From contig CAIUOD010000007.1 in the NCBI GenBank assembly GCA_903900775.1, positions 1-34,124 of the forward strand: 34,124 nucleotides of DNA. Reading direction: 5' to 3'. Positions within the stretch are counted from its first letter, which is position 1, and each line of letters starts with the position of its first letter. Source of the stretch: Candidatus Adlerbacteria bacterium (GTDB lineage: Bacteria > Patescibacteriota > Minisyncoccia > Phycocordibacterales > SBAW01). This document shows positions 6,505 to 34,018 of the stretch, piece by piece. The notes under the pieces are model-generated. The model was given only the letters and a program-made list of their open reading frames with translations. It had not been told where the DNA came from and made no database searches. Position numbers and translations under genes: made by a program.

Positions 6505-7665
6505 ATGAAAACTTCGAATGCCGCAGTGCTCTCGCCCAGCTCACTCTTCGATTTAAAACATCTGCGCGTTTTAGCCGTCGCCATCGCGCTTTCATTTGCT
6601 CTGGTAGCGGTGCCGGCCCCTGCCCACGCCGCACCTCTCAATCAGACCCAGATTTCTGCTATTCTCTCTCTTTTGCAATCTTTTGGTGCTAACCAGAACA
6701 CCATCAATAATGTTTCAGCCGCTTTAAACGGTACGGGTGGTAAATACATCGGCGAGAAGGGGAGTCTTTCAGCAGTCCCGATTTCGGGACCAGCTCCACT
6801 TACCGTGGCGTTCACTACTTCGTATGGGATGTCTCCCTCTATAGTTGATGCTACCTATAGTATTGACTTTGGGGATGGGTCGGCGCAAAACATTACCTGC
6901 GACGTCAGTGCGGCTACGTCCCTGTGTTATGCCCCGGTAACCGTTCAACACACGTACAGCGACAAGGGGACGTACACAGCGGCTGTCCACAGTAATGACA
7001 GAATCATCGCGACACAAACAATTGTTGCCACCAATGATCAAGCGACTAGCGCACCAACCGTCACCATCGACCAGAGCTCGCTCACGATTAATGCCCCTCA
7101 AACGGTATCGGCACCTTTAACGAATTCGACGGCGCCCTCGGTTGACGCCATGAATCCGCCCACCGACACGCAGACCTTGGGTGCCCTGACCAGTAAACAG
7201 GCCTTCTATACCTACCTTTACAACTGCGTGCTTGGTAGGGCACCGGATGCTGGTGGGCTCTCCGGCTGGGTGCAGGGCACCATCAACTCGTTCCAGACTG
7301 CCTATCGCGGGTTCTTCAATTCACCCGAATATGTCGCGGCGAATAACTCTGATCAGAAATTTATCAATCAGGCGTACCAGTGTATCCTCTTCCGCACGCC
7401 GGATGCGGTCGGCAATGCGTTTTGGTTATCCAAACTGCAGAGCGGCGCCTCGCGCGATAGTGTCGTAACCTTCTTTGCAGGGAGTTCAGAATTCCAAACA
7501 AAGATCGCACCCACCCTACAAAGCGTGATGGTTTCGAGCCCCGTAAGCGTCGCGCCTTCGGTGCTCTCTCAAGTAGCTTCGGTAGCGGTGATAGTCGCGG
7601 CCGCGCCGTTCAATGTCCTCATCGACAGCCTCTCGCAGATGTTCGTGGCGCTCGGGATGTATTAA
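6505..7665 (+). CDS. Secreted protein: PKD-like domain plus two DUF4214 repeats
   Basis: 386 residues. A signal peptide with hydrophobic core at 22-38 and likely cleavage near AHA/AP (42-43). Residues 45-74 hold LNQTQISAILSLLQSFGA...TINNVSAAL, shared with the next gene. About 84-175 is PKD-like (SIDFGDGS, then HTYSDKGTY). About 231-332 has two DUF4214 units: YTYLYNCVLGRAPDAGG with GFFNSPEY, and INQAYQCILFRTPDA with FFAGSSEF. A hydrophobic C-terminal stretch follows (about 350-378). DUF4214 often occurs in surface and S-layer-associated proteins; its exact role is not known. A TAGAAT -10 at 6484-6489 gives a leader of about 9 nt. Confidence 0.8.
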   Translation: MKTSNAAVLSPSSLFDLKHLRVLAVAIALSFALVAVPAPAHAAPLNQTQISAILSLLQSFGANQNTINNVSAALNGTGGKYIGEKGSLSAVPISGPAPLTVAFTTSYGMSPSIVDATYSIDFGDGSAQNITCDVSAATSLCYAPVTVQHTYSDKGTYTAAVHSNDRIIATQTIVATNDQATSAPTVTIDQSSLTINAPQTVSAPLTNSTAPSVDAMNPPTDTQTLGALTSKQAFYTYLYNCVLGRAPDAGGLSGWVQGTINSFQTAYRGFFNSPEYVAANNSDQKFINQAYQCILFRTPDAVGNAFWLSKLQSGASRDSVVTFFAGSSEFQTKIAPTLQSVMVSSPVSVAPSVLSQVASVAVIVAAAPFNVLIDSLSQMFVALGMY

Positions 7666-28963: not shown

Positions 28964-29587
28964 ATGGATGAAATCAAAAAAGACGCGGCCCACGGTCATC
29001 TGCAGATAAAGCTTGGTGTCTCCGGCGCGGCCGAGACCGGCCACTGCGGGGTCGACGCGTATGACAAGGGCCTCGAACTCGGCCGCCAAATTGCCAAACA
29101 CGGTGCCATGCTGGTGACCGGCGCCACGACCGGCTTCCCGATGTGGGCGGCCATGGGGGCGGTTGAGGCGGGCGGCTTCTCGTTGGGGTTCTCACCCGCC
29201 ACTGGTGAGAAAGAGCATGTCGAGAAATACAACCTGCCTCTGGAATATATGGACGCTATCGTCTACACCGGCTTTGGTTACCCGGGGCGAGATCTCATCT
29301 TTACTAACTCGTGCGACGGGATGCTCTTTGGTTGTGGTCGCATCGGCACTATCCACGAGTTCATGGTCGCGTTTGAAAATCAAAAACCTATCGGTATTTT
29401 TGAGGCCGATTGGGAAACCGACGAGGTATTTAAAAATATTTTAGACAAAGGCCATCGGCCTAACGACAAAATCGTCTTCGACACCGACCCCACGGCCCTG
29501 GTCGAGCGCGTCATCGAGCTCGTCCAAAAAGACCGAATCAACCGCGCCTCCTTTAGGTTTGAGGCATCAGAAGTGGCAGGCAAATAA
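28964..29587 (+). CDS. SLOG/LOG-family Rossmann protein (TIGR00725-like)
   Basis: 207 residues. LGVSGAAETGHCG at the N-terminus, VTGATTGFPMWAAMGAVEAGG, and GCGRIGTIHEF at about 123-133, which matches the GGGxGTxxE nucleotide-binding signature of LOG/molybdenum-cofactor-carrier-like proteins with the second Gly replaced by Cys. Family members bind or hydrolyse nucleotide derivatives; the substrate here cannot be read from sequence. It ends 14 nt from the convergent gamma-glutamylcyclotransferase gene, with no terminator visible. Confidence 0.72.
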   Translation: MDEIKKDAAHGHLQIKLGVSGAAETGHCGVDAYDKGLELGRQIAKHGAMLVTGATTGFPMWAAMGAVEAGGFSLGFSPATGEKEHVEKYNLPLEYMDAIVYTGFGYPGRDLIFTNSCDGMLFGCGRIGTIHEFMVAFENQKPIGIFEADWETDEVFKNILDKGHRPNDKIVFDTDPTALVERVIELVQKDRINRASFRFEASEVAGK

Positions 29588-29601: not shown

Positions 29602-30078
29602 TCATTCGAGAGCTGCGTTTGCGTATACCGGCGTTTTTGTATCTTCCTTTATCTCATTTTCAATGATTGTCTCCGCCAGCCATTGCTGTCGATCTGTCGA
29701 AGACTTCCCCAACAAACACGTTAATAAATAGCTACGAGGAATTTGTAAATTTGGATAGGATCTGTCTGGAGCTATAAAAGTATACGTGTTTCTTCTTTTC
29801 CTTCGTTCCAGACTATTCGATATATCGACACAGCCATACCCCACTTCGCGCTTTTTGAGCTGTTGTAGTTCTTTATCGGTTACCGGGATAATGACCCCTT
29901 CGACCTTCTTTTCAGCTCGCGGAACAATGTTGAGGTAGAGATAACCATCAACTGGAGCATTGATTTTTCTCTGATAACCAAGTAGCCGCGCCGGTTCAAC
30001 AGCACGCTCGCCCGGCAGTGTTTTTCTAATACTCTTGGGGTTCATCAGCGACCCATATCCGAAGACGTATGATTTCAT
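29602..30078 (-). CDS. Gamma-glutamylcyclotransferase-like protein (AIG2/GGCT fold)
   Basis: 158 residues. YVFGYGSLMNP at 4-14 is the substrate-binding YGSL motif, and KKREVGY at 75-81 carries the catalytic Glu78 expected in the family's R-E-GY motif. These enzymes release 5-oxoproline from gamma-glutamyl amines or peptides. I chose the ATG at 30078 (MKSYVFGYG); the longer frame from 30156 crosses a perfect palindrome. It lies 78 nt downstream of a glutamate-cysteine-ligase-like gene on the same strand, which supports gamma-glutamyl chemistry. More A/T-rich than its partner. Confidence 0.82.
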   Translation of the reverse strand: MKSYVFGYGSLMNPKSIRKTLPGERAVEPARLLGYQRKINAPVDGYLYLNIVPRAEKKVEGVIIPVTDKELQQLKKREVGYGCVDISNSLERRKRRNTYTFIAPDRSYPNLQIPRSYLLTCLLGKSSTDRQQWLAETIIENEIKEDTKTPVYANAALE

Positions 30079-30106
30079 ATCATTAAGTAGTTTCTTATAA
30101 GATTCC

Positions 30107-30140
30107 TCCCCGAACGTCCCACTAGTGGGACGTTCGGGGA
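30107..30140. repeat. Perfect 34-nt palindrome
   Basis: Arms TCCCCGAACGTCCCACT and its exact reverse complement, centred on ACTAGT with no spacer. It lies between the ligase-like and cyclotransferase-like genes. It lacks a T-run, so it is not a standard terminator; a protein-binding site, a processing hairpin or a dispersed repeat are possible. Confidence 0.85.
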
Positions 30141-30156
30141 AGCGGGAACAACCCAA

Positions 30157-31038
30157 TCAGAGGTTCATCGTGTCGAGCACTTTTCGCAGTTGCCCCTCAA
30201 GCTTCGCGTCTTCGCGCCGGGGCAAGGGACGCACTTCGATGCAGAGTCGGTTGCCGTAGCGCTTCAGCCTGAAATACCACCATACCGAACGCAGAAAGAG
30301 CCGAATATCGAACTCGCCTGCTTCTGCATACGAGACCAACCGGCCATTTTGCACTACCTTGTGCCGAGACAGTTGGCCACAGTAATTGCGTAAGCTGTCG
30401 AATTGCAGCGGTCCGCCGTAGCGCAGAGAGTCATACCCGGCAAGCGAAGCCCGGATATATTCTTTCCAGACCGAATCCTGCGGATAATCGGCAAGAAAGG
30501 AGTCGATCGCACGTCCGAGCAGGTTCAAGCAGGGGATAGCCTGCCCAAGAGATATTTCGACTGTGTACTGCACGGCTGATATCGTCGCGAGCGGCGCCAG
30601 CGCCGCTCGCCCATCGAGCGCGAGCCATCTAGCGTCCCGCTCGTCGGGAATTACCAGCAAATCTTCTGCGGTTTCGAGTATCGGCGCAAAGTGTGGAGTA
30701 AGTCCTGCAGATTGCGCCGCCTCATACAACTGGCAGAGTGTGTCTTGAGCAATCCCAGCAACACTCGCCCGGGTTGCAGGACGTGTGGCGACCTCTATAT
30801 TTTGTCGCCCAAGCTCGTAGAGCAGCCGATTGCCGTCCTTGTCGGCTATTTCGGTTATCAAAGCTCCTTTTTGTTGGACTGTAGTCCATCCTTTTCGCAG
30901 CAGAACATGAAGCGTCTCTTGCGATTGAGCGAGCGATGCTGGCTCCTCTCCGCACCGGAACGACGTCTCAACTTCTGCGCCGACAGTCCGAGCGGGCTGA
31001 TTCAACCCACTTTGGAAATATTCGAGCAGTCTTTTCAC
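30157..31038 (-). CDS. Glutamate-cysteine-ligase-like (GCS2/carboxylate-amine ligase) protein
   Basis: 293 residues from the GTG at 31038. VGAEVETSF at 19-27 resembles the metal-binding VGxExE motif of GCS2 ligases, ELGRQNIEVATRPA at 75-88 the ExxxxxxVEvaT motif, and IEVRPLPRR at about 267-275 the C-terminal ExRxxP motif. Family members join Glu to an amine or to Cys using ATP. The start is chosen for the Shine-Dalgarno AAGGAGG five bases upstream, the only strong one in the window; an in-frame TTG at 31116 would read through a terminator hairpin. Substrate unknown. Confidence 0.72.
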   Translation of the reverse strand: MKRLLEYFQSGLNQPARTVGAEVETSFRCGEEPASLAQSQETLHVLLRKGWTTVQQKGALITEIADKDGNRLLYELGRQNIEVATRPATRASVAGIAQDTLCQLYEAAQSAGLTPHFAPILETAEDLLVIPDERDARWLALDGRAALAPLATISAVQYTVEISLGQAIPCLNLLGRAIDSFLADYPQDSVWKEYIRASLAGYDSLRYGGPLQFDSLRNYCGQLSRHKVVQNGRLVSYAEAGEFDIRLFLRSVWWYFRLKRYGNRLCIEVRPLPRREDAKLEGQLRKVLDTMNL

Positions 31039-31051
31039 GATATCCTCCTTC
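31039..31051 (-). promoter_or_regulatory. Strong Shine-Dalgarno deciding the ligase-like start
   Basis: On the minus strand, AAGGAGG followed by ATATC and GTG. It is exceptional here: the ribosomal genes in this window have none. Confidence 0.75.
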
Positions 31052-31074: not shown

Positions 31075-31102
31075 CCAAAACCCCCTCTCGCATGAGAGGG
31101 GG
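31075..31102 (-). terminator. Intrinsic terminator, second of two after rplT
   Basis: Stem CCCCCTCTC-ATGC-GAGAGGGGG (minus strand) followed by TTTTGG. Confidence 0.75.
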
Positions 31103-32789: not shown

Positions 32790-32796
32790 AGCAGTG

Positions 32797-33222
32797 GTGA
32801 ATAAACAAGAATTTCTCAATTCGCTCAATGACGTCTACTGCCGGCTGGGTATCACCAGCCACGGGGTAGGCGTCATTGCCGTTCGGGCTATCCCCAAAGG
32901 CCTCGACCCGTTTAAAAACTGCGACCCCGGCGGCGATTTACTCGAGATCCCCGCGACCGATCTCGAAGCATGTAGCGCCCCGGAAGAGGCCAAGCAGTTG
33001 GTGCGCGATTTTTGCGCACTCCAGGGCGGCATTTATTTCGCGCCCGACTACGGCATCGACGCGATTGATAAATCTTTTTATCTCAATCATTCAGACGAAC
33101 CCAACATGGTTTCTCTCGACCACGGCGAAACCTTTCTCACCGCGCGCGATATCGCGGCAGGGGAGGAGCTGACGATGAACTACGACACCTACAACGAGGC
33201 CGCGCATTTTAAACGCACGTGA
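32797..33222 (+). CDS. SET-domain protein (putative lysine methyltransferase)
   Basis: 141 residues from GTG 32797 (an adjacent GTG at 32794 is also possible). SHGVGVIAVRAIPKG is the N-terminal SET strand, NHSDEPNM the NHxxxPN cofactor motif, and TARDIAAGEELTMNYDTY the C-terminal motif with the catalytic Tyr. Stand-alone, without pre- or post-SET zinc domains. It probably methylates a protein lysine with S-adenosylmethionine. Ribosomal proteins are plausible targets by context only. Confidence 0.82.
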   Translation: MNKQEFLNSLNDVYCRLGITSHGVGVIAVRAIPKGLDPFKNCDPGGDLLEIPATDLEACSAPEEAKQLVRDFCALQGGIYFAPDYGIDAIDKSFYLNHSDEPNMVSLDHGETFLTARDIAAGEELTMNYDTYNEAAHFKRT

Positions 33223-33223
33223 T

Positions 33224-33526
33224 TTAGCGATAGAGCAAGATTTCAATAACGATTACGAGGTCGAGGAGTGCCATCAAAAAGTTGGCGAGGAAGATGAGCC
33301 GCTCGCGATGCAGGCGGCCGTAGAGGCTCCACATGAGGTTGATTAAGCACAAGAGCCCCCACGTGCCGAGCGAGAGCCCGGCGACATTTTTGCTTTCAAA
33401 CGCTTGGAGAATTTGCGGCAAGAGCGTGAGCGGCGCGCACAAACTAACGACGAGCATGAGCGAGTCGAACGCGCGCGCCACCCCAAGCCGCTGGCGTTTA
33501 AGCAAATGATGCAGACCGTGAGTCAT
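33224..33526 (-). CDS. SemiSWEET sugar transporter (PQ-loop)
   Basis: 100 residues, three helices (about 22-40, 49-68, 74-96). The PQ motif (LTLLPQILQAFESK) and NLMWSLYG match the half-size SWEET family, which dimerises to form a sugar uniporter in the cytoplasmic membrane. It converges with the SET gene with 1 nt between the stops. A TATACT -10 (minus, 33538-33533) lies six bases before the ATG, so it is predicted leaderless. Confidence 0.82.
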   Translation of the reverse strand: MTHGLHHLLKRQRLGVARAFDSLMLVVSLCAPLTLLPQILQAFESKNVAGLSLGTWGLLCLINLMWSLYGRLHRERLIFLANFLMALLDLVIVIEILLYR

Positions 33527-33606: not shown

Positions 33607-33644
33607 ATCCTACAAAATTATATTCGTAGGACTCATTAATTTTG

Positions 33645-34018
33645 TGGAGATGGGGGGTTTCGAGCCCCCGTCCAATGGAAGTTACGTGACGTTTCTACAC
33701 GACGTAGTTTGTTTTATTTTTCTCAACTGAGCGCCTTTAAAACAGACAAAATAGCAATCAGTCCAGCCTCATTTTTTAAATCACTCCCTGAGGCGGGGGA
33801 GCGACCGAGCTCGGTTGTATAACACCCTTCTTGCGCCCACGAGCGTCACGCAAGGGATGTCGCGTTAGGCCTTAGCGTAGGCGAACGCGAAATCATTCGC
33901 CGCGAAATACGGCGAAGCAACTGTTTTGGCAGTTATTGGTTTCCGGATTTTTAAGAAGATCCGGACTTCTGCCGCGCACAGCCACAAAACGGCTCCATTG
34001 TCTAAGCAATGCATCCCC
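33645..34018 (-). ncRNA. ssrA: Transfer-messenger RNA (tmRNA)
   Basis: About 374 nt. The 5' end GGGGATG (34018-34012) pairs with CATCTCC (33652-33646), giving a 7-bp acceptor with the G3-U70 alanine identity pair and discriminator A at 33645. The T arm is GGGGG-CTCGAAA-CCCCC. CCA is not encoded (ACAA follows). A pseudoknot-like stem CCGGAT/ATCCGG precedes the tag reading frame at 33930-33865, whose resume codon is probably GCC after AATAACT, as in E. coli TAGTC-GCA. The tag starts AKTVASPYF, ends NDFAFAYAKA and stops with TAA. It rescues stalled ribosomes with SmpB, whose gene ends 16 nt upstream. Confidence 0.9.
33865..33930 (-). other. tmRNA tag reading frame
   Basis: 21 codons plus TAA if the resume codon is GCC at 33930; a shorter alternative starts at a GCG giving ANDFAFAYAKA, similar to the E. 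coli ANDENYALAA. The end AYAKA differs from the usual ALAA/LAA proteolysis signal. Confidence 0.7.

Follow-up and report, generated by a model that had tools for sequence, protein, structure and literature searches.

A divergent predicted gamma-glutamyl ligase of Patescibacteria and its exchangeable amide-cleaving neighbours

Background

Could a bacterium with a reduced genome make and break a gamma-glutamyl bond without glutathione? The question is raised by two genes on a contig of a Candidatus Adlerbacteria bacterium, taken here in its whole length (34,124 nt; “the window”, contig C7 of source genome G000). The source genome measures 756 kb and is 97% complete, and its relatives are Patescibacteria (Paceibacterota, Liptonbacteria and Nomurabacteria by name). 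In a limited search of the literature on very reduced Patescibacteria, we found no thiol or gamma-glutamyl cycle.

An initial annotation of this DNA described two neighbouring genes on the same strand at 29602–31038, and both open reading frames are present with exactly these limits. It read the upstream gene, here called X, as a GCS2/ligase-like protein on the basis of motifs and the downstream gene as a gamma-glutamyl cyclotransferase (GGCT)-like protein, and proposed that one makes and the other cleaves a gamma-glutamyl bond. The company of a ligase and an amide-cleaving enzyme is already known from phage modules, in which an amidoligase lies beside an AIG2-type cyclotransferase, a GATase and an ATP-grasp protein (PMC3890496, PMC5513430); X differs from these by family.

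Results and discussion

X and GGCT are real, neighbouring genes

X lies 5' of GGCT, both on the minus strand, and is preceded by an infC-rpmI-rplT run (as read from the sequence) that ends in a hairpin (Table 1). We take X to be 293 aa from a GTG start at 31038 to its end at 30157; the 319 aa given in the table of open reading frames corresponds to an upstream TTG start. GGCT is 158 aa from the ATG at 30078, where homology begins, or 184 aa if the TTG at 30156 is used. X is 31–52% identical to 17 relatives, which rules out chance open reading frames.

Between the two genes is the perfect palindrome CCCCGAACGTCCCACTAGTGGGACGTTCGGGG, which could uncouple their expression. As it occurs once in the window and was absent from other species' X loci when looked for there, it is not a conserved part of the arrangement. 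A SLOG/LOG-like gene adjoins the pair both in the window and at L023, that is, in both genus members that have the pair. Elsewhere in the window we noted a tmRNA gene and, side by side in this reduced genome, genes for a small SET-domain protein and an MtN3/PQ-loop (SWEET-like) protein.

Table 1. Positions of features in the window and at other loci
Locus	Position	Strand	Feature	Basis
Window	28964–29587	+	SLOG cluster-4 (LOG-like) gene, convergent with GGCT	PF18306, E 2.4e-29
Window	29602–30078	-	GGCT: gamma-glutamyl cyclotransferase, AIG2-like	PF06094, PHROG, alignment to 2g0q
Window	30108–30139		Perfect 32-nt palindrome between X and GGCT, without T run	
Window	30157–31038	-	X: predicted divergent GCL-fold carboxylate-amine (gamma-glutamyl) ligase	Fold model, Foldseek, hhalign, residue conservation
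Window	31044–31050	-	Shine-Dalgarno-like AAGGAGG ahead of X GTG	Sequence
Window	31081–31100	-	Terminator-like hairpin, closes upstream infC-rpmI-rplT run, before X	Sequence analysis
Window	32794–33222, 33224–33526	-	Small SET-domain protein; MtN3/PQ-loop (SWEET-like) protein	
Window	33642–34018	-	tmRNA gene	RF00023, 130 bits
L023	4176–5117		SLOG/LOG-like gene	PF18171/PF18306
L021	6286–6975		GGCT homologue, no detectable X	
L022	about 6714–7196		GGCT homologue, no detectable X	
L025	6831–11085		X, class-I GATase, short YbdK-type, long GCS2	
L026	6741–10930		Same four-gene order	
L027	2580–6608	-	Same four-gene order	
L028	6547–10813		Same four-gene order	
L049	2120–6260	-	Same four-gene order	
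L050	5393–9423		Same four-gene order	
L068	3400–7102	-	YerC-like regulator, X, ATP-grasp, EgtC-like class-II GATase	
L001	7514–7906		YerC/TrpR-like gene	HMM
L002	7228–7578		YerC/TrpR-like gene	HMM
L024	5001–5315		YerC/TrpR-like gene	HMM
L066	4797–5117		YerC/TrpR-like gene	HMM
L035	6208–6522		YerC/TrpR-like gene	Read from sequence
L037	643–957	-	YerC/TrpR-like gene	Read from sequence
L068	6788–7102	-	YerC/TrpR-like gene	Read from sequence
L003	2145–4027		Folate genes	
L027	1693–2514, 6813–8030		Folate genes	
L049	6778–8001		Folate gene	
L050	3871–5196		Folate genes	
L001	8976–9314		Pterin gene	
L068	8355–8675		Pterin gene	Read from sequence

X is very probably an active gamma-glutamyl ligase of an unrecognized family

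Every public model used here fails to recognize the X family. X gave no match in Pfam at E<=1 (PF04107 included), nothing in NCBIfam at E<=10 and no PHROGs model; PF12224 (Amidoligase_2) did not match it at E<=10, a PADLOC search for anti-phage defence gave no matches, and querying PDB sequences with an alignment of X proteins returned nothing. PF04107 matched nowhere in the source genome and stayed below its cut-off of 21 bits in two X relatives (13.8 and 12.4 bits). Amidoligase_2 is reportedly found in the context of GATase or AIG2 domains, and the phage Amidoligase_2 and COOH-NH2_lig modules resemble the X loci in placing a ligase beside AIG2, GATase or ATP-grasp proteins; X, in contrast, has no PF12224 match and is cellular and Patescibacterial. 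No relative of X was detectable in viral contigs, and amidoligases in a viral fold library matched X weakly (E>=1e-3).

Structure prediction places X in the GCL superfamily. An AlphaFold2 model built on a 4-sequence alignment reached pLDDT 77 and pTM 0.78, and its best PDB match by Foldseek was the plant glutamate-cysteine ligase 2gwc (E 3.4e-11, TMq 0.68), followed by glutamine synthetases and YbdK (1r8g, 1tt4) at E about 1e-4; further matches were GmaS and, partially, Dop (7oxy, TMq 0.35). Profile comparison points to the same branch: 16 X proteins aligned by hhalign to six GshA/EgtA-like ligases (alphaproteobacterial/EgtA-like) with P 5.5e-7 and a probability of 92%, against P 0.13–0.18 for reversed-alignment controls. 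These six references are real proteins taken from plasmid records. Support was weaker for two GCS2-like neighbours from other loci and weak for E. coli YbdK (P 0.016). In register between X and the GshA/EgtA-like ligases are GxExE, ELGRQNxE with EPGGQLE, and VQYT with VQVN; the C-terminal ExR also aligned, in a separate comparison.

We read residue conservation across 18 sequences, mostly 40–55% identical, with L029 at only about 30%. E22, E24, E82, R134, R206, R257, E268 and R270 are identical in all 18; E75, N80 and Q157 change only in L029 (17/18), and T159 is kept except in L029 and L068. Most of the putative active-site residues thus never vary, which speaks for an active enzyme; by predicted fold, profile comparison and retained residues X is very probably an active gamma-glutamyl ligase. 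By sequence and predicted structure it belongs to the GCL superfamily, nearest to the branch of the plant/alphaproteobacterial glutamate-cysteine ligases (GshA group iii; 2gwc) and the actinobacterial EgtA-like proteins, with which it shares fold, GxExE, ExG(G)Q-xE, VQx(N/T) and RxK..ExR. It differs from them in length (293 against about 456 aa), in identity (19% over aligned columns), in falling below all family thresholds, and in its neighbourhood, where neither glutathione synthetase nor ergothioneine genes were found. Its substrate pockets may differ as well, since X reaches no HMM threshold and falls about 160 residues short of the length of GshA.

The GCS2/YbdK-type proteins (PF04107, TIGR02050) share the superfamily fold (1r8g, 1tt4), and a YbdK-type protein shares an operon with X in families f45 and f100; X, however, has no HxH motif and fails PF04107. 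Of the ligase assignment made from motifs, the predicted GCL fold and the profile match thus bear out the general part, whereas ordinary HMMs do not confirm the family: X falls short of the PF04107 threshold and is closer to GshA/EgtA (VQxN) than to YbdK-type GCS2.

GGCT is an ordinary family member

The cyclotransferase assignment fared better, as GGCT passes PF06094 (E=9.5e-7, 29.8 bits against a cut-off of 22.8). It also matches the PHROG gamma-glutamyl cyclotransferase (E 9e-5), and carries FGYGSLM together with an acidic residue in register with the Arabidopsis AIG2-like protein 2g0q, as in the GGCT/GGACT/ChaC proteins. The YGSLM motif is kept in L018, L019 and L066 (as YGSLI in L066), and the homologues of G005, G016 and L066 keep both motif and acidic residue. 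By homology, GGCT is an ordinary gamma-glutamyl cyclotransferase, which may be of the GGCT, GGACT or ChaC substrate type.

X and GGCT are patchy, and their pairing recurs

X was found in 2 of the 35 genomes searched of its genus (the source genome and G025), in 3/28 genomes of family f45, in 2 of 380 genomes of a phylum sample (own genome not counted), and as convincing matches in 8 of 384 genomes of the class (own genome counted) and 8 of 244 genomes of another order. Three candidate carriers, G144 and G266 (class search, E about 4e-4) and G872 (search of another order), were dropped as noise. Such a patchy spread points either to horizontal transfer or to frequent loss.

X is followed by GGCT in three genomes of two families: in the window, in G025 (L023, where the contig ends within the GGCT gene) and at L066, which comes from another family than the window and whose partner is likewise a PF06094 protein. 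The pairing is therefore conserved but not obligatory. One may ask whether the two genes were instead acquired independently beside a ribosomal operon, their adjacency being incidental. Both genes are indeed patchy within the genus, and G005 and G016 have GGCT, at L021 and L022, without detectable X; yet the recurrence of the order at L023 and L066, and the other amide-cleaving enzymes that fill GGCT's place elsewhere, largely contradict this reading, and we consider it most improbable.

Unrelated amide-cleaving enzymes take the place of GGCT

Of the other X loci examined, all except one have a different amide-cleaving enzyme close by, in most cases directly next to X: a class-I GATase at 8, an AstE/AspA protein at 5, an M20 hydrolase at 1 and an EgtC-like class-II GATase at 1. 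The class-I GATase is 3' of X at the f45/f100 loci L025–L028 and L049–L051, and also follows X at L003. The AstE/AspA protein adjoins X at L024, L030, L035 and L029, with one gene between at L001; the M20 hydrolase at L036 is convergent with X. At L068, X is accompanied by an ATP-grasp protein and by a class-II GATase that matches EgtC best (TIGR03442, E 1.1e-11, below cut-off). The exception is L002, apparently from the same genome as L067, at which we found no amide-cleaving partner. Among 264 open reading frames at 19 X loci, the partner families occur only next to X or, at L001 and L068, one gene away; this count is partly circular, the profiles having been built from the partners, so that it shows absence elsewhere in the loci, not independent significance. 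The adjacency of X to amide-cleaving enzymes is recurrent in gene order.

Partners have evidently been exchanged. L066 pairs X with GGCT, L024 and L035 pair it with AstE, and yet the X protein of L066 shares 67% identity with the other two and groups with both at 100/99 support; near-kin of X with different neighbours imply that the partner changed while X was kept. On the initial idea of a conserved X-GGCT pair the outcome is accordingly mixed, with recurrence in three genomes on one side and, on the other, the majority of X genes, which adjoin other amide-cleaving enzymes, and the GGCT genes without detectable X in G005 and G016. This strengthens the chemistry and weakens the notion of a fixed pair.

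Several gene orders around X are noteworthy in themselves. At L025–L028, L049 and L050, X and the class-I GATase are followed by a short YbdK-type protein (with HxH) and a long GCS2 protein, while at L051 the contig ends within the short gene; with three GCL-superfamily ligases, this four-gene operon is likely to encode a multi-step gamma-glutamyl peptide pathway. The row of genes at L068 resembles a small peptide-synthesis cluster. It is like the ergothioneine EgtA/EgtC pair in combining X with an EgtC-like class-II GATase, and unlike it in that the GATase is below the EgtC cut-off, an ATP-grasp protein intervenes, and neither EgtB nor EgtD was seen in the locus. A YerC/TrpR-like gene directly upstream of X at seven loci suggests amino-acid-responsive control.

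A proposed make-and-break cycle and its competitors

The reading we favour is that X makes a gamma-glutamyl amino acid and that GGCT, or an amide-cleaving enzyme in its place, breaks it without glutathione; we give this proposal as a whole a probability of roughly 0.6. X, dependent on ATP and metal, would convert the gamma-carboxyl of glutamate to gamma-glutamyl phosphate, which would then react with the amino group of a small acceptor. This acceptor would most likely be an amino acid, for example cysteine, and the product a gamma-glutamyl amino acid. GGCT would remove the gamma-glutamyl group as 5-oxoproline and free the acceptor. In the other X-bearing genomes, a class-I GATase, AstE/AspA, M20 or EgtC-like class-II GATase would hydrolyse the bond instead. 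The product may serve as a small thiol, as a store, or as a form in which the acceptor is protected, and it would do so in a cell with no detected glutathione synthetase: the initial annotation had seen none nearby, and a search for the glutathione synthetase domain PF02955 found none in the 97%-complete genome.

That one enzyme makes and the other cleaves such a bond finds support in homology (predicted GCL fold, conserved catalytic-type residues, PF06094 with its acidic residue) and in gene context. The convergence of partners supports a make-and-break cycle and favours a gamma-glutamyl amino acid as product, with the caveat that the GATase, M20 and AstE families have many other amides among their substrates; adjacency is therefore no proof of a gamma-glutamyl product. 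The usual substrates of AstE and M20 enzymes are N-acyl amino acids, and for this reason an amino-acid acceptor is favoured. Cysteine would be the simplest candidate, since the nearest relatives of X use it and gamma-Glu-Cys is known as an end-product thiol in haloarchaea, a glutathione-free precedent (PMC7278568). We infer the acceptor, the direction of flux and the physiological role from this context, and the ligase fold, active-site pattern and GGCT membership from homology, predicted fold and residues.

The same partners bear on a second proposal, in which X joins activated glutamate to an amine, for instance a polyamine, on the pattern of PuuA/GmaS-type amine utilisation, with release by the neighbouring enzymes. 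The glutamine synthetase superfamily includes gamma-glutamyl-amine ligases, GmaS is among the matches of the X model, class-I GATases include PuuD-like hydrolases, and the partner GATases give a PF07722 sub-hit. However, the N-acyl amino acids on which AstE and M20 partners normally act carry a free carboxylate, a gamma-glutamyl polyamine has none, and the closest fold and profile matches of X are cysteine-using ligases; we consider amine ligation unlikely.

Modification of a ribosomal peptide or protein side chain, in the manner of Dop/PafA or the amidoligases and with the neighbour reversing the tag, seems to us highly improbable. The Dop match would fit, as would the phage clusters that join amidoligase, ATP-grasp, GATase and AIG2 (PMC3890496), given the X, ATP-grasp and EgtC-like GATase of L068; but that match is only partial, we noticed no small peptide gene recurring next to X, and the partners are small-molecule hydrolase families.

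Folate and pterin genes were near X more often than we expected: SHMT is next to X at L027, L049 and L050 and near it at L003, which also has DHFR; FolD is near it at L027 and L050 (the latter read from the sequence), and pterin carbinolamine dehydratase at L001 and, read from the sequence, L068. X might then be a folate/pterin gamma-glutamyl ligase replacing FolC, with the GATase/C26, M20 or GGCT neighbour trimming the tail. FolC was above cut-off in 0/44 genomes, as such a replacement would have it, but it went undetected alike in X-positive and X-negative genomes. SHMT occurs in 12/14 X-positive and 22/30 X-negative genomes, X-positive G311 and G540 have no detectable SHMT, and no folate gene adjoins X in the window. 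The distribution of FolC and SHMT leaves a folate link unsupported as a requirement for X, and the folate reading is very unlikely; like protein tagging, it ranks below the gamma-glutamyl amino acid cycle.

Conclusions

As chemistry, the original idea holds, and it widens: the partner of X is an exchangeable amide-cleaving enzyme, not always GGCT. These swappable partners offer a handle on the product, because one small molecule should suit GGCT, GATase, AstE, M20 and EgtC-like enzymes alike. More broadly, and tentatively enough that we would sooner doubt than assert it, some Patescibacteria may run a glutathione-independent gamma-glutamyl cycle with an unrecognized ligase family, a cycle in which unrelated families have on several occasions taken over the cleaving step; in some of these bacteria, three GCL-superfamily ligases and a GATase in one operon may make a new gamma-glutamyl peptide or thiol.
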